A stretch of DNA of 64,000 bases, from assembly GCA_947568835.1 (NCBI GenBank), contig OX387602.1:27083021-27147020 (forward strand), in the 5' to 3' direction. How positions within the stretch are numbered: position 1 is the first letter of the stretch; each line of letters starts with the position of its first letter. Source of the DNA: Protonemura montana. Taxonomy: Eukaryota > Arthropoda > Insecta > Plecoptera > Nemouridae. The translations under genes and the position numbers were made by a program. This document shows positions 26,020 to 56,502 of this stretch, one piece after another. The notes under the pieces were generated by a model. The model was not told where the DNA came from and did no database searches. It saw only the letters and a list, made by a program, of their open reading frames with translations.

Positions 26020-26248
26020 GGAAGGTGCAACTCGAACAGCAGGATTCCTCCACAAATCCATGCAGTTGAGTGTTTGATATGCAAGTCTAATGAAGATGCT
26101 GTACTAACTTTCATTCCTCCAACCTCTCTCCCGAACATAACTGATCATGTGTATAATGGTCACCCATCCAATACCTGACCCAGCGCAGTGTTGCTTAACG
26201 TCGGTGATCTCACGAGAACCGGTGTTTCCAGCACGCCAAACCGTTTGG
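26020..26248 (-). mobile_element. 5S rRNA-derived SINE, copy B (best-preserved 5S head)
   Basis: Read on the minus strand from 26248: ACGGTTTGGCGTGCTGGAAA, then CACCGGTTCTCGTGAGATCA, CCGACGTTAAGCAACACTGC and GGATGGGTGACCATTAT. This follows 5S rRNA from near its 5' end through boxes A, IE and C, with small differences and an altered end. The SINE body follows (GAGAGAGGTTGGAGGAATGA..., GGATTTGTGGAGGAATCCTG). The copy stops inside the body near 26020, so its 3' third is missing. Confidence 0.85.
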
Positions 26249-26967
26249 TGTGACAATTCGAGGAGGGCTCGTAAGCAATTGGACCCGCTGTGTGACTTGA
26301 TTTGGTCAAGAACACTCACATCTAACAAATGCAAATGCAGTTAAAATGAATCTAATTAAACATCCGCAATTGAAGTACGAGAATTTGCAGTTCTTTAGCA
26401 TCTGCATGCCTGGAAAACATTTGGTCTGTGATAGCAGCCGTGGACGCCATTGCTGTTATCACCTCGATCCACTTCGAAAACCGGTCAGCTAATGGGAGCC
26501 GAGCTTCAGTCGATTAAAAGTAGGAGGCTGGGTCGATCGAGCACGTGTTGTGACGTCACTTGAACAGCGATGCAGTAGGTTTCAGGCGATACTCTTCCGT
26601 CGGCTACTCGCCTGGTACGAAGAGACAAATTTTCGCCTCGTTTTAGACGATTATTTCAGTTGAAACTTGTCATGGTTGGATAAACCGTACGTATAGGCAG
26701 TCCCGTGGCACTCACGCGTACCACGAGTTGCTTCAAAGTTTTCACAGGCAAACTAAATTTCCTGACAACGTCATTCGTTCCCAGCTACTTGACACAATTT
26801 TATGAAATATAGCTTTGAATTTTAGGCATAGGCAACGTCTCAAAATATGACCGATTGGGAGATGAAAATATGTGATATTCTGACTTTTGTTGCAAAACTT
26901 GTTGCAAACCTTTACAAGATACGATATTTTCTGCGTTGTAGTGTGATCTTATAGATCTTACAGATTG
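26249..26967. other. Spacer between two 5S-SINE copies, nothing recognised
   Basis: No open frame of note and no repeat shared with the rest of the window was found. Confidence 0.4.
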
Positions 26968-28850: not shown

Positions 28851-30748
28851 TGTCGGACTGGTTCCAAAAGGCCCCGGCGGCAATGAGACTTTTGGGGCCC
28901 CGCAAAGCCCATGCCGGGGGGGGGGGGGGGGGGGGGGGGGGGGTCTGCCAAGCAGGAAAGGAATGTATATGCAAGGTGGTGTATAGGTAAACTAAGGGTT
29001 GTATACACATAAACTGGTAGCAGCGCCCAAGTCCGGCGTTAGAGAATGGAGATTGTACAGATACAATGATCGATCAATGGCCAATTTGAAATTAATTAAA
29101 CCAAAATTATACACCTGTGACGTATCGACTTGAGATACGATTGTGTCGTGTACGCACAGTGTAGGGTTTGGACGCCCGAAGCAAACCCCAAATTTTGTGC
29201 CCCGAAAAAAACTCAGGCAGCACCTCACACGCCAAAATTAAATGAAAAAATGTGTCGACAAGAGTCAACACGTCGACGATTCATAAAATAGAATAGATGA
29301 TTTACAACAAGGATACAGGACTCTACGAAATCGTAGAAACACGATACACGATATTAACAAGATATTACAACACAATATTAATTGCCTTTGGAATTACTGA
29401 AAAAAAAAGCCTTTTTGAAATCGTCTATCTACTTCTCAGAAAAATGCTTGTGCTAGGCCAAAAACATATTGGTGCATTTCTTTGTCTGGAAAACGATACA
29501 TTTTCTGCCCACTGCAGAGGTTATTTTTGGCGTAAGCTCACGTTAGTCCCGCGTACCCACTTTTTCTTGCGATAGTGTAAATCGATCATTCATTTCCGGA
29601 AAGGTTTGCTCTTCTCTGCTCTTATATTCAAAAAGCACGTGTTATTTTTACGTGTTAGTGAAACATTTATTTGTAAGTGGAAATCTGCGATAACGTACCT
29701 ACGTATTTTCATAGGATCTTATCATTCTGAAAATAATATGCCAACACCCGAAACTCGAAGTGTTGTAGGAGTACAGCTAATATGATGATAACGCAAAGCG
29801 ATCGTACTATCTAGGCTCGACGCAGCGCCAACAAAGCACTGCGACACTCGAAAGTGTGGATATTTTTTCAATGTTAATTCAATGACAAATTCGCTGTAAT
29901 TTTAGCCGTTTTTTTCTGGAACTGTTTTGTTTCAAGATACTGATTCACACATACCGACACAACAGCTGTTCGAAACATCACTCTTAAACACATTCTGTAG
30001 CCAGCTCAGACTTCAAATTTGAGTTTAGGCTTGCTCGGGGTCATCATTCAGGCAACAATCTGTAGATAGCAAAGCACGAGTAAATCCGCCAGACCCGTGT
30101 AGCTGACAAATACAAATCTTAATTTCCCCGTAGAATCGCCAATAATTATTGTTGCTAATGTGAAATAAGCGCGTGGTCGACGTCTAGCTCCACTGCAAAT
30201 ATGTGGTTAGCTCAATGCAAACCCTCATAATTTAATAACCCATACCATGCAAATTTGGAAGTTATAATTTAGAAATTCATGTTATTCTTATTCGATTATC
30301 AACCACCATGCTTATCGTAACTTCTAAATGTTGTCCAACATCACTTACTACTTTACTTCGACTTCTTTACTTTACATTTAAAAGAAAAACCAATTCGGCC
30401 GTCACCCCATGCATTTTTGGGGCCCCCTGAGTGTGCAGTTTCTTTGTATGTGCTACAAGTGCTACACAAGTGCGTTGTATAAAATACTATTCACTTTGGT
30501 GTCGCGTTGAAAGAGCGAGAGGCGATTGAAACGGGTTGAACCGGCGCCCCGTTTGTGTCGGTGTCGCGAGGCCCGAATGACAGGCGTTTAATGTTATTCC
30601 GTAAGTCTACAAAAGTGATCTTAAAAATGTTCCCAAAATTATGTTTGGAACCATGATTTGTGGGTTTAAGCACGAAAATCAAATTTAAAAAATCCAGCCG
30701 GCTGGAGGCCCCGGCGGCATTTGCCGCCTGGCTGCCCTGGCCAGTCCG
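28851..30748. mobile_element. Possible non-autonomous hAT-like element
   Basis: The left end TGTCGGACTGG (28851) with GGCCCCGGCGGC lies in inverted orientation to the right end at 30698-30748, which finishes GGCTGCCCTGGCCAGTCCG. The 51 bases at 30698-30748 are identical to 34583-34633, where they continue to ACACTGG. Read outward this gives a CAGTGTCGGACTGGCC-type terminus, compatible with hAT ends. No transposase lies between them. Pairing these two ends into one element is inference; they may be unrelated solo termini. Confidence 0.45.
28916..28943 (+). repeat. Run of 28 consecutive G
   Basis: An uninterrupted G tract beginning after ATGCC, inside the left part of the hAT-like element. It should form G-quadruplexes and is prone to length error in assembly. 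Confidence 0.9.
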
Positions 30749-30896
30749 GCGGTATAGCACAAAATTACCCTTGTTTTATTTACTTCCTGCAAAAGGCACA
30801 TGAAAGTGGAACGGGTTCGTATCCTGCTTGGTGCACTATTTTTAACTATGAATCAATCACCTACCAAGATTGATAAAGTATTGTCATGCAACTCTC

Positions 30897-30993
30897 GCCG
30901 GTCTTCGTAGCGTCCATTCGGCGGCGAGTGAAGATCGCTCTCGTGCTCAGCGCCAGGGTGCAGAGGGTCCCTGGTTCGAAGCAGGTAAGTCAC
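30897..30993 (+). repeat. tRNA-like element (SINE head)
   Basis: Weak A-box CGTAGCGTCCATTCGG at 30906-30921 and B-box TGGTTCGAAGCA at 30972-30983. The distance is longer than in most neighbours, as in class II tRNAs. A separate lone B-box (GGGTTCGTATCC) is at 30813-30824. Confidence 0.45.
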
Positions 30994-31111
30994 ATGTGTG
31001 TAAAACTACTGGATATGTATTAATCTTTACAGAGAAAACTAACATCTCTTCTCGATGGTGTACCGTGATCCCCGCCAGCTGCTATTTAAGTATATGTTAT
31101 TTCCTCTGGTA

Positions 31112-31350
31112 TAGCAACACGTCTCAGTGGCCGTGGGGTACGGCCACTTCTTCATGGGGACATTGCTTAAATGTCTCGAGTTCGAATCCTGCCCGATTTT
31201 GTTCTTCATCAAGTGGCGACAGGCATTCATTGAATGCTGCAAGTATTGCATCGCTCGTTCATCCATCGAAACTCTCAAAGTATTTTTGACTCTTTTCATT
31301 ATTACACTGTAGTCGTCTTCTGCTATTCATGTATATCTTTGTTCAATCGT
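31112..31350 (+). repeat. tRNA-headed SINE, family T1, copy 1
   Basis: A-box TGGCCGTGGGGTA at 31128-31140 and B-box AGTTCGAATCC at 31179-31189. It is followed by TTTTGTTCTTCA, the same junction as in the next element at 31430-31450, so both belong to one family. Confidence 0.65.
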
Positions 31351-31357
31351 TAACCAT

Positions 31358-31690
31358 CTCGTCTCGATGGCCGGTTGGAAAAGTCGCTCCTCGAAAGAGC
31401 AATTTGGATGTGACCGGGTTCGAGTCCTGTCCGCTCCGCTTTTTGTTCTTCACGACATAGCTGGCACAATCTTTGATAGTGCATGGCAGAGGCGATGTAG
31501 TGTGAAGCGATCTCTATGCTGCCGGGGTCGGATAAGAAGGCAAAAAAAAAAAAAAACGACAAACGCGTCCCTGCAGAGGGCGCTATCAGCTGACACTTTC
31601 ACGCTAGATCGCGGCAACTGGTGGTAGCCCGTATCTTTGGAGTGGACGATTGCCCCTGTATTACTTGGTGCGGGGGTCAGGTCCAGTTCT
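31358..31690 (+). repeat. tRNA-headed SINE, family T1, copy 2, with conserved body
   Basis: The head starts GTCTCGATGGCCGGTTGG, with A-box at 31368-31379 and B-box GGGTTCGAGTCC at 31416-31427, then TTTTTGTTCTTCA. An A-run at 31543-31556 precedes a body, CACGCTAGATCGCGGCAACT (31600-31619) through CGGGGGTCAGGTCC (31672-31684). This body recurs on the minus strand at 33621-33710, so it is a shared SINE domain. Confidence 0.65.
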
Positions 31691-31875
31691 TGCTCGCTGC
31701 GTAAGTCGGTCAAAGTCGGTCATAATATCTTGAATTTCTTAATTGATGGTTCACTGAAACGCAAAGAAGAATGCGACTCCGAACCGTAGCATACATTGAG
31801 TGCCGGTCAACCCGGTAAACAGGGACATCAGATATGAAATTAAAATATATTCAGTTTACCAAAGCAGGGGCGACC

Positions 31876-31962
31876 GTCTGCGTAGCACAATGGACATGTC
31901 GTTACATCGGAACCATCAAGCTACATTGTGACCTGGTTCGATCCCGCTCACCGACAGGATAT
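31876..31962 (+). repeat. tRNA-like element (SINE head)
   Basis: A-box TAGCACAATGGA at 31883-31894 and B-box GGTTCGATCCC at 31935-31945, both close to consensus. The acceptor stem pairs poorly. Confidence 0.6.
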
Positions 31963-32057
31963 TTTTTCTATTGGAATGCGAGATTCAAAGTATTCACATA
32001 TGGTAGCTGCAGTCTGAAGAAATTATATACCATAAAAATGCCAGTGCAACTAGATGT

Positions 32058-32148
32058 CCGCGAGGTCGTGCGGTACAAGGCACTACCTCTTGTGAATACT
32101 CATGAGATTGCCGGGGTCCCGGGTTCGAATCCCGTCAGCACAACTACT
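32058..32148 (+). repeat. tRNA(Leu)-like element
   Basis: GGTCGTGCGGTACAAGGC (32064-32081) resembles the D-arm of tRNA(Leu). A long variable region and GGGTTCGAATCCC (32121-32133) follow. Four of five T-stem pairs form. It is the most tRNA-like of the cluster but lacks a good acceptor stem, so a pseudogene or SINE head is more likely than a gene. Confidence 0.55.
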
Positions 32149-32197
32149 GCAGTGGCAGACATCTTATTTTTTTTGAGCGCACAGTGTAGATACCACG

Positions 32198-32466
32198 AAA
32201 ATTGCGGAGCGCGACTGGCGCTTCGCGCCAGTCGCGCTCCGCAATTTTAAAGCGCTGTCGCGCGCTTCGCGCGCGACAGCGCGCTAAGGTGGGCGTCCAA
32301 GCGCGCGGAGCGCGCTTGGACGCCCACCGGTGCGCCCGTGCACCTGAGCGCGCGAAGCGCGCTCAGGTGCACGGGCGCACCGGCACGCTGCTGGGCCCTG
32401 GCGCTCCGCGCCAGGGCCCGGCAGCGTGCGTGAGCGACTGGCGCGGAGCGCCAGTCGCTCACGCAC
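32198..32466. repeat. Array of six abutting hairpins with C(GNA)G triloops
   Basis: Arms and loops: (1) 32198-32221/32225-32248, loop TTC; (2) 32252-32265/32269-32282, TTC; (3) 32288-32306/32310-32328, GGA; (4) 32327-32353/32357-32383, GAA; (5) 32383-32404/32408-32429, TCC; (6) 32426-32444/32448-32466, GGA. Arms are 14-27 bp and all perfect except one mismatch in (5). Every loop sits inside GCGC-NNN-GCGC. TTC and TCC are the complements of GAA and GGA, so each palindrome carries a C(GNA)G triloop on one strand. Open frames read through it on both strands are artefacts of the symmetry. It lies 50 bases after a tRNA-like head and next to the fold-back repeat. Confidence 0.95.
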
Positions 32467-32477
32467 CCGGGCTCCTA

Positions 32478-32758
32478 CGTCTAGCATCAAGTATATAGGA
32501 ACGATAATGAGTGTTAAGCATCATCAGCGCCACCTGTTGGCAGGATTTTGTACTATACTCTGGACTTGTAATAATTGAAGACATTTGCCAAGTCTGATTT
32601 TTAATCTAATTCATTAACTAATCGGAAAATAACTATGAAAATACAGCAGGAAAATATCAACATATTTGTCCAAAGTGTAGTACAAAATCCTGTCAACAGG
32701 TGGTGCTGATGATGCGTAGCACTCATTATAATCGTTCCTATACGCTTGATGCTAGACC
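32478..32758. repeat. Fold-back repeat: ~88-bp inverted arms around ~104 bases
   Basis: The left arm 32478-32564 begins GTCTAGCATCAAGTATATAG. The right arm 32669-32758 is its reverse complement with scattered mismatches. A single arm of the same family is at 28131-28243. Weaker similarity continues a few bases outward from both arms (GGGCTCCTAC and the complement of CTAAGGGCC). No coding capacity; it could be a MITE or two insertions of one short element in opposite directions. Confidence 0.8.
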
Positions 32759-33043
32759 TAAGGGCCAGCGCCAGAGTATGGCACCGTCGTCTTGGGTGTC
32801 CAAGTGGTGTTATACGACAGTCTGTTCATACATAGCGAAAGATCCAGGATGAGTAAACTGTACAAGACTTCGAACGTATTTTTTATTTTGTACGATGATG
32901 GGCAATACTGAAGCTGATGTTTATAATGTTTCATCGAAATATCTTTTATTGAAAATCATGGAGGCAGTGTTTGAGATTTTTTTCGGATTTTTTGACGGAG
33001 TTGTCACAGTTGAACAATTTTTGTATCCCAAAAAAACGTATCA

Positions 33044-33123
33044 TGGAGAGCCGGTCTTGTGGTCAAGCGGTTTAAGTGGATGCATCAGGTATCAAACGTC
33101 CTGCGTTCGATCCTCGTTGCCTA
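33044..33123 (+). repeat. tRNA(Leu/Ser)-like element (SINE head)
   Basis: A-box TGGTCAAGCGGTTTAAG at 33060-33076 and B-box GCGTTCGATCC at 33103-33113. Similar to the element at 28527. Confidence 0.6.
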
Positions 33124-33416
33124 CATCTTTTTTTTATCACACCAATCATCCTCCAGGGCAAGAAAAAAAATTATGTTTTAGTTCCTAGCCTGGCTACCAG
33201 GGGGTGATAACATCGACGAAACAATATTGGCCATGGTGGGGAACGTTACATGAAAAGATGACTACTGTTACTAAAAGAAAATGTAACTTAAGTACGAAAA
33301 ATTATATAAAGTAAATATATAAGAAGAAGTAGGAAAAGGGGGAAAAATGAGTATATACACAATTTATTTGGATTTATAATTATTATATATCATCATAAGA
33401 CATAGATACAGAAATT

Positions 33417-33575
33417 AACAAACATCACCACAAGCAATATAACGAAAATAACGTACACTAATATTATCAACATCACTAAGACTACCAGCATTACCAACAT
33501 TAATACGAACATCACCAACAATACCAACATCAATACCACCACCACCTCCACCACCACAACCACGATATCAACCAT
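33417..33575 (+). repeat. Low-complexity ACC/ATC/AAC tract
   Basis: Irregular trinucleotide-like repeats of CAACATC, ACCACC and related units. It produces long Val/Leu-rich open frames on the minus strand that are not genes. Confidence 0.8.
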
Positions 33576-33614
33576 GCGCTAATAGAGAGAGAAGGTTTCG
33601 CTTCTACACGATGT

Positions 33615-33830
33615 GTAAATGCCGGACCGGACCCCAACACCAAGCAGTGCTGAGGCACGCGGCCACTCCAAAAAATGGGCTTTCACCAGTTGCCACGATC
33701 TAACGCGAAAATGCAAGCCTTGAAGTCCGACTGGAGGAACGCCAGTCGAACCCCGTTGCTCGCAGTCAGGTCCCCTGGTCAACCATACCAAACAAGTATC
33801 ACCGAACCAGCAGTCGAGTTAAAGCACAAC
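33615..33830 (-). repeat. tRNA-headed SINE sharing the conserved body
   Basis: On the minus strand a head with GCAACGGGGTTCGACTGG leads into CGCGTTAGATCGTGGCAACT and then TTGGTGTTGGGGTCCGGTCC. This follows the body at 31600-31684 with roughly three quarters of bases the same by eye. Confidence 0.6.
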
Positions 33831-34265
33831 GCAATCTGTTGGATATCAAATGTACTTGATCAATTGAAATGTCGATAAATCACGGCCATCGGTCGGTAAC
33901 CCGTGTACCCACCTTGCTGAGCTGCCAACCTTGAAGCTATAAAATAACGGAATCGTGCCCATAATTGCTTATCGTGTTCGGGGGTGCAAACTACCCCATA
34001 GACCACAGTATGGGCGAATCTTCAAAAATCAAGAATAAACGTAAGAAACGTAAAAAAGGTCCATTGATTTTTCAACATTTTTTGAATGGAAATTGAAGTG
34101 ACTGCACACCCAACGCCTGGACTGTAAACACGACGTCAGTGCACACGTGTACGATGAGTGGCCTACCCATCAGGATTCACACATAAATATTACTGCTACA
34201 AGTGATTTATTTACACCTTGTTTTATTGACTTGCATGTTGATAAGAAATCAGTAACAGCGTATGT

Positions 34266-34334
34266 TTCCTCGTAGCGCAGTGGGATGGTCGTGAGATTCA
34301 ATGCGTGGGGTCCGCAGTTCGCATCCCGGCACAT
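34266..34334 (+). repeat. tRNA-like element
   Basis: A-box TAGCGCAGTGGGA at 34273-34285 is essentially consensus. The B-box AGTTCGCATCC at 34316-34326 has one change. A short A-box-like piece without a B-box follows at about 34455-34470. Confidence 0.55.
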
Positions 34335-34564
34335 TCTACTTTTGTCTTTCAAAGCGAGATGGAGAGATGATCCGAAATATAACTTTCATGATTTTTTTTT
34401 ACCAAGTCTAAAATCAAGTGTTTATATACGACTTCCACCAACCTATTGCCATCAGGGCAGCGTGGCTCAATGATAACAAGCACTGGCTATTTGCAACATT
34501 AAGACAACATAATCAAATAACTATAAATTAAATTTTTTTTTTTTAAACTTCCTTATTGTAAATG

Positions 34565-34640
34565 GGGCCCCAGGGGCCCCGGCCGGCTGGAGGCCCCGGC
34601 GGCATTTGCCGCCTGGCTGCCCTGGCCAGTCCGACACTGG
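34565..34640 (+). repeat. Solo hAT-like terminus (identical to 30698-30748 over 51 bases)
   Basis: GGGGCCCC-rich lead, then 51 bases identical to 30698-30748, then ACACTGG. Read outward the end is CCAGTGTCGGACTGGCCAGG. The partner end was not found nearby. Confidence 0.6.
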
Positions 34641-36594: not shown

Positions 36595-36756
36595 CCTACC
36601 TCAAACCTTATTATGCCTAGGCCATATGGCTTGGCATAGGAATCATGTTTTTGCGAAGGAATAACATTTAATGTAGGCTACTTTTTGTTGCGGTTTTTGT
36701 TGTGGCGAATAACGAGACTCTGGCGCTCATTTGGGTACAGGCCTTCAAACTCAAAG

Positions 36757-37479
36757 ATGGTGGGTAACGCGATGGAGGTCGCCGTGAACGATATCTGCTT
36801 ACCGGGGGATGTGGTGTTTCGCTCTAAAGCTGATATTAAAACGACTAAAACAGTGTTAGGACCAGGACTTACAATTTCTTCAGATAAGGTTCTAATTACA
36901 AAAAGTGGCGTCCTCCGCAAACTAGAACCAAACACTTACTTCGTTGACTGTCATCAAAAACGCTATGTGCCTGCACGTGGAGAATCTGTGGTTGGAATAA
37001 TCACCAACAAATCTGGGGATATTTTCAAAGCAGACATTGGCTCGAGTGAACAAGCATCTCTTTCCTATCTTGCATTCGAAGGAGCGACAAAGAAAAATCG
37101 ACCAGCAGTGAATGTCGGAGATGTGGTATTCGCCAAATTGGTTATGGCCAGCCAGTATATGGAACCTGAACTTGTTTGTGTAAACTCTCTTGGGAAAAAA
37201 GGTATGCTTGGTGTTCTTCCCGCAGATGGGTTTCTCTTCACATGTAATCTCAACCTTGTGCGAAAAATCCTCAATCCCAATTGTAAATTGTTGGTCATAC
37301 TAGGACGCGAAATACCACATGAAATTGCTGTTGGAATGAACGGAAAAATTTGGCTCAAGGCAAAATCTGTAAAAGAGACGATAGCAATTGCTAACGCAAT
37401 ACTATCTTCAGAAAGCCTGTCCAATGAAGAAATAGTTTACATGTGTGATGATGTTGTCAACGTGTTGTCAAGGGTGTAA
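36757..37479 (+). CDS. EXOSC3: EXOSC3 / RRP40, RNA exosome cap subunit (intronless)
   Basis: A single frame gives 240 residues from the ATG at 36757 (A at -3, G at +4); 36772 is the alternative start, and the frame is open upstream to 36685. Order: N-terminal domain (LPGDVVFRS), S1-type RNA-binding region (QKRYVPARGESVVGIITNKS then GDIFKADIGSSEQASLSYLA), and C-terminal KH-type domain with FEGATKKNRP, GMNGKIWLKAKSV. RRP40 is one of three cap proteins on the nine-subunit exosome core, guiding RNA into the channel in nucleus and cytoplasm. Poly(A) signal AATAAA is at 37577-37582. Oddity: no introns, unlike every other intact gene here, and it starts about 160 bases after the transposon end at 36594. 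A functional retrocopy is possible, but nothing is broken. Confidence 0.93.
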   Translation: MVGNAMEVAVNDICLPGDVVFRSKADIKTTKTVLGPGLTISSDKVLITKSGVLRKLEPNTYFVDCHQKRYVPARGESVVGIITNKSGDIFKADIGSSEQASLSYLAFEGATKKNRPAVNVGDVVFAKLVMASQYMEPELVCVNSLGKKGMLGVLPADGFLFTCNLNLVRKILNPNCKLLVILGREIPHEIAVGMNGKIWLKAKSVKETIAIANAILSSESLSNEEIVYMCDDVVNVLSRV

Positions 37480-54218: not shown

Positions 54219-56502
54219 ATGTCGTTATTAAATAAATACATGCATCCTAGGAACATTTATAGAATCGCCCCCGATTTTAAAGAGCTTGCGATTCTGTATC
54301 CAGAGTTTCGGGCATTTACAAAGCAGGTAATCTTTAGGAATAGAACTAAACAGTTGTCTCATGCTGTTGCCTCTAGATAAATACAACATATAATAATTTA
54401 CATTCATTCTACAGGAAATAAGCGGGAAAGTAATAATTGACTTTAAAGACCCAGCAACATTGCGAGCTCTAGCAGCAACCCTGTTAAAAAAAGATTTTGG
54501 TCTATCTGTTGATATTCCCGTTGATCGATTGGTGCCGACAGTTCCCCTACGACTAAATTACTTACTCTGGATTGAAGATCTCATGGTGCTCTTAAAAGAG
54601 ACGAGACAAAACCCTATTTATGGCATAGACATTGGTACAGGTGCCACTTGTATATATCCACTGCTTGCTGCAAAGAAAAATAACTGGCAAATGGTTGCAA
54701 CTGATGTTGATGTAAAAAATATTGACTGGGCAACAAAAAATATCAAGAAGAACCAGCTGCAGAACCTTATAACAGGTAACTTAAAAATGTATGCCAATTG
54801 TCTTTGAACAATGTAGGGAAAATGTATTGGCTGAATTATAAATGCACAGCCCATTTTCTGCTTGAAATGAGGGTTTTAAAGTAAAAGAGCATGCTTTACA
54901 CAAGCAAGTACCTACATTAGTATGAATGTATTGACCCAATACATTTATTTGATTGATTATTGGGGTTTAACGACGCACTGTTTTGACAACTGGCCCTGCG
55001 GCACTGGTCTAATGGCGTTGATGAATGAGCGAATGATTATGAGGATGATGATGAACTTACCTTAGCTTAGAAGGGAGAAAGGGAAACCCAGTGCCAGTAC
55101 GTAGCCTACTCTTGTCGAAGAGCACCAAGGGGACCACCGGCTTAACGTCCCTTCCGAAGGACGGTACAACGCAAACAGCAGGATTCCTCCACAAGTCCAT
55201 GCTGTCGAAGGTTGACAAGCAAGGCGAAGGAAGTTGCTGTACTAACTTTTATCCCTCCAACCTCTCTCCCAAACAGAACTGGGGATTTGTATGGTGATCA
55301 CCCATCCAATACCTGACCCAGCACAGTATTGCTTAACTTAGGTGATCTCACGAGAACCGGTGTTTCCAACACACCAAACCGTTCGATGTATATAAATTTA
55401 TTTCTCCATTAATTTATTTTTTTTTTAGTTAAACAGGTAGATGTAAAATCTATTCTTCTTGATGCAATCGATGACACAGTCAGATACGACTTCTGCATGT
55501 GCAACCCACCATTCTTCAGCAATGAAAAAGAGCTCGACCCCAGTAACAAGTCTCGATCAGCTACACGGCCAGTACCTCACAATGGGCGGACAGGAGCCTT
55601 GGGTGAGGTTGTCGTGGAGGGAGGGGAAATAGCATTTGTTCATAAAATGATACACGAGAGTAAGGAATTGGGAACAAAAATAAGGTAGGTACCTTAAAAA
55701 TTGTATATATATATATTTTTAATACCATATGTGGTTAAATTTTGGAGTAGCCTTCTAATGAAACACTTCACCTACTTATTTCAGAATCTACACCACAATG
55801 ATTGGCGTGAAATCCAGCCTGGTTCCCCTGTTAAGCGAACTTAGCGAACTGGGAATATCAAATGTTGTGCAAACCGAGTTTTGTCAAGGCCATACAACTC
55901 GGTGGGGTCTTGCATGGTCATTTGATGATAGTCTGCAGCTGATTACCACTGAGAAAAGAAAGAATAAGAGGAAGAGAGATCAGAAAAAACCAATGTTTAA
56001 ATATATCCTACCAAAAATGTGCAGCTTACCAGAATACACAATTGCAGCAGCTACTACAAAGCTCCTGTGCCTGCTCAATGAACTGGAAATTACATGTGTA
56101 GAGTTGAAAAATGATAAGCACATGACATCACACTGTGTTGCTGCATACAAGAACACGTGGTGTAATCAAAGGAGAAAAAGAAGGCAGGCAACCAAAGAAG
56201 AAACGAGGACCACAGAGCTCAATGATGAACCGATCAAGGGCAGCAAAAGGCTTTTGGAAGATTCTATTGATGAAGAAGTATGTAGCAAGAAATGCAAGAG
56301 CAATGACACTGCCACCACTGGGGAAAACAGTGCTGAGATAACAGATTCAACCGCAGTGACAGGCGTCCCAATACTAAAGGCCACGCTCATTGTGAAGAAA
56401 GTAAGCGGAGAGATCATTGTAGAGCTCTCCTGGATGGAAGGTTTATGTGGCAAAGATGCTGTTCACCAAGTACTCCAGTACTTCAAGAATAACATTAAGT
56501 AG
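54219..56502 (+). CDS. METTL16: METTL16, RNA N6-adenosine methyltransferase
   Basis: Exons 54219-54326, 54415-54775, 55429-55684 and 55785-56502 join in phase to 480 residues (human 562). The start ATG precedes SLLNKYMHPRNIYRIAPDFK, matching the family N-terminus. SAM-binding GIDIGTGATCIYPLL is in exon 2; the catalytic NPPF (CMCNPPFFSNEK) is in exon 3, followed by EGGEIAFVHKMI. FCQGHTTRWGLAWSF and a Lys-rich stretch (KRKNKRKRDQKKP) are in exon 4. The C-terminal part is divergent and shorter, in the place of the vertebrate VCR domain. METTL16 methylates the U6 snRNA ACAGA box and, in animals, MAT2A mRNA hairpins, tuning SAM levels. Intron 2 contains an antisense 5S-SINE copy (54947-55384) that ends 45 bases before the exon 3 acceptor. 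Confidence 0.95.
54947..55384 (-). mobile_element. 5S rRNA-derived SINE, copy D (nearly full length, in METTL16 intron 2)
   Basis: Minus strand from 55384: GAACGGTTTGGTGTGTTGGA, CACCGGTTCTCGTGAGATCA, TTAAGCAATACTGTGCTGGG and GGATGGGTGATCACCAT (5S head, about 110 bases). The body then runs to GGGACGTTAAGCCGGTGGTC and CATTAGACCAGTGCC, and the 3' end GTCGTTAAACCCCAATAATC AATCAAATAAATG. It is the most complete of the four copies and defines the family at about 438 bases. Confidence 0.85.

Follow-up and report, generated by a model that had tools for sequence, protein, structure and literature searches.

A GRA-looped DNA hairpin array in a dispersed repeat of Protonemura montana, with signs of hairpin-templated copying

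The hairpin array and its surroundings

We analysed a stretch of 64,000 nucleotides of the Protonemura montana genome (C1:27083021-27147020, hereafter the window) and searched 258 Mb of that genome in 34 contigs for related sequences. The window holds an array of six hairpins (H1 to H6) inside a dispersed repeat, together with the following neighbouring features:

30770..34639, dispersed repeat, extent judged by alignment with the C13 copy (89% identity)
31570..31583, + strand, second CTCF-like core, one mismatch to the consensus
32060..32143, + strand, tRNA-like unit read by eye, upstream of the array
32167..32174, + strand, run of eight T that separates the array from the tRNA-like unit, a putative Pol III terminator
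32198..32248, H1, 24-bp arms, loop TTC, apparently akin to the single-hairpin family's imperfect hairpin, but perfected
32252..32282, H2, 14-bp arms, loop TTC
32288..32328, H3, 19-bp arms, loop GGA, inverts between copies
32327..32383, H4, 27-bp arms, loop GAA, inverts between copies
32384..32428, H5, 21-bp arms with one T.G, loop TCC, inverts between copies
32426..32466, H6, 19-bp arms, loop GGA, no flips
32470..32565, - strand, module M, which includes a CTCF-like core on that strand (32527-32540)
32668..32766, + strand, module M', inverted partner of M, 85-90% complementary

The six palindromes described in the first-pass annotation are real, with arms of 24, 14, 19, 27, 21 and 19 bp, the T.G in H5 as the sole mismatch, loops TTC, TTC, GGA, GAA, TCC and GGA exactly as it had them, and GCGACTGGCGC common to arms 1 and 6. 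The packing that it called spacer-free is nearly so: gaps of 3 and 5 nt exist, but the other neighbours abut or overlap by 2-3 nt. All six occurrences of GCGC-NNN-GCGC in the 64-kb window are array hairpins. The computed folding energy of the array is -181.6 kcal/mol versus -88.1 ± 3.7 kcal/mol for 200 shuffles (z -25), none of which was as stable (0/200). The C(GAA)G triloop, as in GCGAAGC mini-hairpins, is unusually stable in DNA, and the array has this triloop in common with them, whereas here it forms the tip of 14-27 bp stems, may be GAA or GGA and occurs in both orientations. Because the energy rules do not separate the loops (GAA, TTC, GGA, TCC and AAA all yield -14.9 kcal/mol), the special stability of GNA loops is taken from the literature and not from the folding calculation.

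Two open reading frames of the repeat (138 and 139 aa) were scanned against Pfam and gave no match; the 138-aa frame (31834-32250) runs across H1, and a protein-coding reading was rejected. A hairpin-ended or rolling-circle element, raised in the first-pass annotation, finds no support in these two frames either. At the RNA level, Rfam returned no family in the array at gathering score, and ARAGORN (bacterial mode) detected no tRNA in the window. The gathering-score matches in the window are two 5S-rRNA-like ones (51-53 bits, minus strand, 26129-26249 and 55268-55386) that lie in repeats outside the array repeat, and a known RNA family was rejected as the identity of the array. Pieces of the 23.2-28.1 kb region, which holds the first of these 5S-like matches, recur in rearranged form in the vicinity of the array copies on C2 and C13. 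In the related locus L008 a 5S match stands just at gathering score, and miRNA-family matches in related loci, which did not reach their gathering scores, were discounted. The window also carries a single, apparently intronless open frame for RRP40 (EXOSC3) at 36640-37479 on the + strand; the reading frame at 36685-37479 has its best matches in Anabrus and Periplaneta at 66% (Anabrus 66% over 89%), which points to a probable polyneopteran host.

Copies of the repeat and the single-hairpin family

The array, or part of it, is present at 37 or more genomic loci, and these dozens of copies rule out a unique locus. Using 32150-32800 as query, we found 33 near-full-length matches (84-100% identity, the window itself included) and one partial match, a lower bound with 40 of 605 candidates scored. 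The exact H4 core occurs at 32 sites (control 0), all with GAA/TTC loops, on C1, C2, C4, C5, C11, C13, C15 and C16; three of these loci are additional to the 33 + 1 copies, two on C16 and one on C5 (L081), the latter with five hairpins whose loops are TTC four times and TGA once. Well-kept copies carry four to six hairpins each, the same ones as in the window; H2 is missing in L063, L064, L069, L070 and L071 and half-deleted in L061.

To the left of 30770 the window sequence differs, and nine other copies, which have the left-end sequence TAGATGTGATTT in common, continue there for some 20 nt of additional common sequence (TAGATGTGATTTCTTTATAT; one change in the C13 copy). Because these nine copies agree for about 20 nt and most differ beyond, the left end of the repeat probably lies at the border of this stretch. 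A GC-rich 55-bp direct repeat (30694-30748 and 34579-34633, 98% identical, 3885 bp apart) surrounds the array region; part of it recurs in L024, and its right neighbour, CCAGTCCGACACTGG, adjoins L056 and L060 at their left end. Six further loci match the M-M' half only, and with hairpins called at arms of at least 9, one mismatch and GC >50%, L077 has three, L073 one and L074, L075, L076 and L078 none; by eye, L075 has a hairpin of the single type described below in place of the array hairpins.

The array family is part of a larger family of about 560 single hairpins, each one imperfect hairpin of the form GCAAAATTG-g-CGGGCGC-ga-CTGGCGC-GAA-GCGCCAG-ga-GCGCCCG-g-CAATTTTGC, with 7-bp inner arms and a GA.GA mismatch. 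The inner hairpin of this form occurs at 566 sites genome-wide (control 0), at least four of which are H1 of the array loci L050, L053, L054 and L060 with the family mismatch still present (two of them, C1:17496532 and C1:24805503, the H1 of L050 and L053, stand among the 100 single hairpins listed). By sequence, H1 looks like a perfected version of the single-family hairpin. Among the 100 of 566 listed, all on C1, 95 loops are GRA and 5 are GTA (one tandem array), and none is inverted (TYC). For CTGGCGC-NNN-GCGCCAG we found 703 sites (control 0), and 49 of the 50 listed have GRA/TYC loops, the other being GCA. The single hairpin adjoins a 34-mer with four G-runs, CGGGGTATAGGTGGGGTTTGGGGTCGTGGGAACG, a G-rich string with G-quadruplex potential that was seen in L008-L034, L079 and L080 and has 650 sites at 0-2 mismatches (control 0). 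On C1, at 20.14 Mb (L080) and 28.86-31.15 Mb (L079), the single-hairpin unit is also arrayed in tandem, its periods being about 976 bp and 1.7-1.8 kb; several such loci lie 0.25-0.5 Mb from one another.

On our preferred reading, the array forms the hairpin-bearing part of a dispersed non-coding repeat that was probably once mobile. On a rival reading, that of a foldback or MITE-like transposon, the hairpins and inverted M modules would serve transposition and have no host role. The M/M' inverted repeats, which are internal to the six-hairpin repeat, the scattered copies, the recurrent inverted pairs of single hairpins about 400-700 bp apart and the left end common to nine copies, most of which differ beyond it, all speak for such an element; however, no target-site duplication was noticed by eye in the flanks inspected, no transposase is known for it, and long tandem arrays (periods of about 0.8-1.8 kb) do not fit it well. 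We consider a transposon without host role a serious contender, albeit one that is rather less than probable. REP/BIME elements are bacterial arrays of GC-rich hairpins in alternating orientation that are mobilised by the RAYT nuclease; the present array resembles them in its GC-rich hairpins and alternating orientation, whereas REP/BIME are bacterial and RAYT-mobilised. The titles and abstracts that we could cover, a part of the literature, include none on such a hairpin array.

Evolution of heads, loops and arms

The first-pass annotation had proposed that each loop is GNA on one strand. GCGC-GRA-GCGC occurs 905 times genome-wide versus 183 for a reversed-pattern control, while GCGC-GYA-GCGC occurs 126 times versus 205; with GYA-loop sites below control and GRA-loop sites above it, we dropped GNA in favour of GRA (GAA or GGA). 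The restriction on loops is borne out within the array family, but in a narrower form than proposed, and it does not extend to GCGC-NNN-GCGC at large, for which 905 of 2962 sites in the genome are GRA/TYC. The H1/H6 core had no match in viral contigs, and its two matches in bacterial contigs, each a lone hairpin with a different loop, were treated as chance.

To follow change copy by copy, 34 copies were aligned and a tree of all 34 was built from the flanks only; changes in heads and loops were counted on 33 copies (without the degenerate L072) and paired changes on 32 (without L072 and L059, which has a 41-nt insertion). In the 33 copies, 190 of 192 loops are GAA/GGA or the complement, the exceptions being GTC and TTG; further exceptions are TCT and AAG in L072 and the TGA of L081. 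Loop positions 1 and 3 each took a single change versus 8.6 expected, with 15 changes at the middle R, and the inner 7 bp beside the loops took 4 changes in 84 columns versus 120 expected, while the outer arms took 177 versus 235; these expectations are flank averages, and the repeat is uneven (from about 1% to 22% divergence per 40-nt bin), so that other modules are conserved as much as the heads. Counts made on the tree can be inflated by gene conversion between copies. Selection for folding had been one suggestion of the first-pass annotation, and the near absence of change in the inner 7 bp and at loop positions 1 and 3 supports the view that the C(GRA)G head is constrained.

The arms remain paired as they diverge. 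In 32 copies, 98.5% of 3701 cells are paired, and 24 of 119 pairs are changed on both sides, versus 9.3 ± 2.1 in shuffles and 0-6 in slid controls. Such matched changes can span several bases, as in H3 of L052 and L062, where one arm went from CCA to TTT and the opposite arm reads AAA. The loops themselves invert: Fitch parsimony on the 34-copy flank tree gives 19 flips, 6 in H3, 5 in H4 and 8 in H5, and none in H1, H2 or H6. Flipped loops are also found between copies whose flanks are merely 1.4-2.4% apart. Flank divergence between L063 and L064 amounts to 23 of 1593 bases, yet their H4 loops point opposite ways on arms in which all 27 pairs are identical. L056 and L060 (39 of 1730) carry H5 loops of opposite orientation and also differ in one H5 pair. 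The latter sisters further differ by a two-base arm change, so that one copy has a perfect H1 and the other a mismatched one.

Since hairpin-templated copying predicts both loop inversion and in-step change of the arms, these observations support a process that works on the single strand in its folded state, as the first-pass annotation had surmised: loops invert while arms are kept paired, and arms change together. The confinement of flips to H3-H5 tells against it. That some perfect stems flip while the imperfect ones seen do not would fit the same process. The flips are scarcely credible as assembly or sequencing artefacts; polymerases can misread hairpins, but copies related on the flank tree agree in their flipped or unflipped states, and these states recur across several chromosomes. 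An assembly chimera is likewise very unlikely, as related copies on several chromosomes have derived states in common.

Template switching is described as creating and maintaining hairpins in rRNA and microRNA genes, and compensatory change combined with loop inversion is given as very rare, with 6 cases in a table (Monttinen and Loytynoja 2022, PMC8794818). The array is alike in that its stems are perfect, compensatory changes span several bases and whole loops invert, but differs from those RNA genes in being a non-coding nuclear hairpin array with dozens of copies and a fixed loop class. The same process could in principle act alone, in that template switching as described there (PMC8794818) accounts for both arm matching and loop inversion, and the palindromes would then be self-correcting structures without function. 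We hold this purely mutational account to be unlikely, because self-correction alone freezes no sequence, whereas the inner 7 bp are nearly unchanged, even in matched fashion, and so are loop positions 1 and 3.

Compensatory changes in perfect stems are also the classic mark of RNA selection, and with a tRNA-like unit just upstream the array might be transcribed (for example from a tRNA-like Pol III promoter), its hairpins feeding a small or structured RNA whose pairing is selected. In a hairpin RNA of the tRNA-miRNA type made by Pol III, however, the tRNA-like unit continues into the hairpins without a terminator, whereas here the eight T separate the two, and T-runs lie at the same place in the single-hairpin loci that were read. 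Selection on an RNA from one strand should moreover favour one kind of mismatch, but G.T and A.C events are equally frequent (23 vs 24, 33 copies), and therefore neither strand has the G.U tolerance expected of it. Together with the strand-flipping loops of H3-H5 and the lack of an Rfam family at gathering score in the array, this makes selection at the RNA level quite improbable.

Chloroplast DNA has minute inversions at hairpin loops between inverted arms, which the array resembles in the inversion of a small loop, although those are single hairpins of plastids; to our knowledge they have no tandem array or conserved GRA loop.

Conserved neighbours, spacing and a possible boundary role

Module M carries CCAACAGGTGGCGC, one mismatch from what we take to be the CTCF core consensus. 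Three sites within one mismatch of that consensus lie in the 64-kb window, two of them in the repeat (31570 and 32527), and within-block shuffles gave 0, 0, 0, 0 and 1. Both cores of the repeat are conserved, with 0.6% (31570) and 0.9% divergence versus a median of 4.2% per 20 nt, which places them among its least changed 20-mers (lowest 6% and 9%); the partner core in M' has 5.7% and no special conservation. A conserved CTCF core motif, as expected of a CTCF-bound mobile boundary of the B2 kind, is present at two sites, judged against that consensus. The single-hairpin loci have a TGTAGTACC-like string 8 nt ahead of a CTCF-like core, and this string resembles the mammalian upstream CTCF motif. 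That upstream motif is reported absent in Drosophila (PMC12885311), the Drosophila CTCF consensus is described as similar to the vertebrate one (PMC3491045), and CTCF motifs are treated in two others (PMC9004084, PMC5504073). A B-box-like stretch near 32121 diverges by 1.1% among copies versus 8-10% in the flanks, and among eight B-box-like sites in the repeat those at 31934 and 32121 are strongly conserved, that at 33103 weakly and the other five not. Mouse B2 SINEs, tRNA-derived dispersed repeats, are bound by CTCF and act as boundary elements (PMC8136502); by comparison, the CTCF link is here by motif alone, and each repeat has several tRNA-like units plus hairpins. A tRNA-derived SINE would have a tRNA-like 5' head with Pol III A and B boxes, a tail, and target-site duplications around discrete insertions; the observations bearing on this are the B-box-like sites, the ARAGORN result, the left end common to nine copies and the flanks inspected, where no such duplication was noticed.

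The positions of the loci on C1 offer a lead. Taking exact strings among the matches listed, on C1 only and with C1:17496532 and C1:24805503 removed from the singles, the 57 merged six- and one-hairpin loci between 11 and 31 Mb, a start picked after the data were seen, have a gap CV of 0.49 versus 0.89 at random (0/20000). Neither class alone is even in this interval (17 arrays, CV 1.16; 41 singles, CV 0.97), and circular shifts of the arrays against the singles gave p = 0.0004 (11-31 Mb) and 0.09 (3-31 Mb). From 3 to 31 Mb, where random placement gave 261/20000, the evenness is weaker than from 11 Mb. We treat this even spacing of the two kinds of locus as a lead.

The findings suggest that the folded DNA itself is copied and kept, and we infer that hairpin-templated copying combined with head selection is likely. 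Our preferred account, held with moderate confidence, is that of a DNA-level hairpin array in a once-mobile repeat, shaped by template switching and by selection of C(GRA)G heads, and less surely boundary-like. The GC-rich palindromes would extrude as hairpins at replication or repair, and a polymerase would switch template inside the hairpin, copy one arm onto the other and at times invert the loop. The heads (17 nt: 7 bp, GRA and 7 bp) would be kept because it is the C(GRA)G mini-hairpin, whichever way round it stands, that folds well or is recognised. With less certainty, the folded DNA might act within a boundary or insulator-like element, an idea suggested by the conserved CTCF-like cores, the B-box-like tRNA fragments and the even spacing of both kinds of locus. 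A stronger version, which we regard as doubtful, is a chromosome-architecture element of folded DNA, in which C(GRA)G arrays with CTCF-like and B-box-like sites would be kept perfect by template switching and spaced at about 360 kb on part of a chromosome, six- and one-hairpin loci being interchangeable.

Whatever their role, these dozens of loci are a natural experiment on the survival of long perfect palindromes in an animal nucleus, in which every copy adds to the tally of inversions, arm correction and frozen heads. Should a boundary role prove true, DNA secondary structure would be, beyond a hazard, a working part of chromosome organisation.
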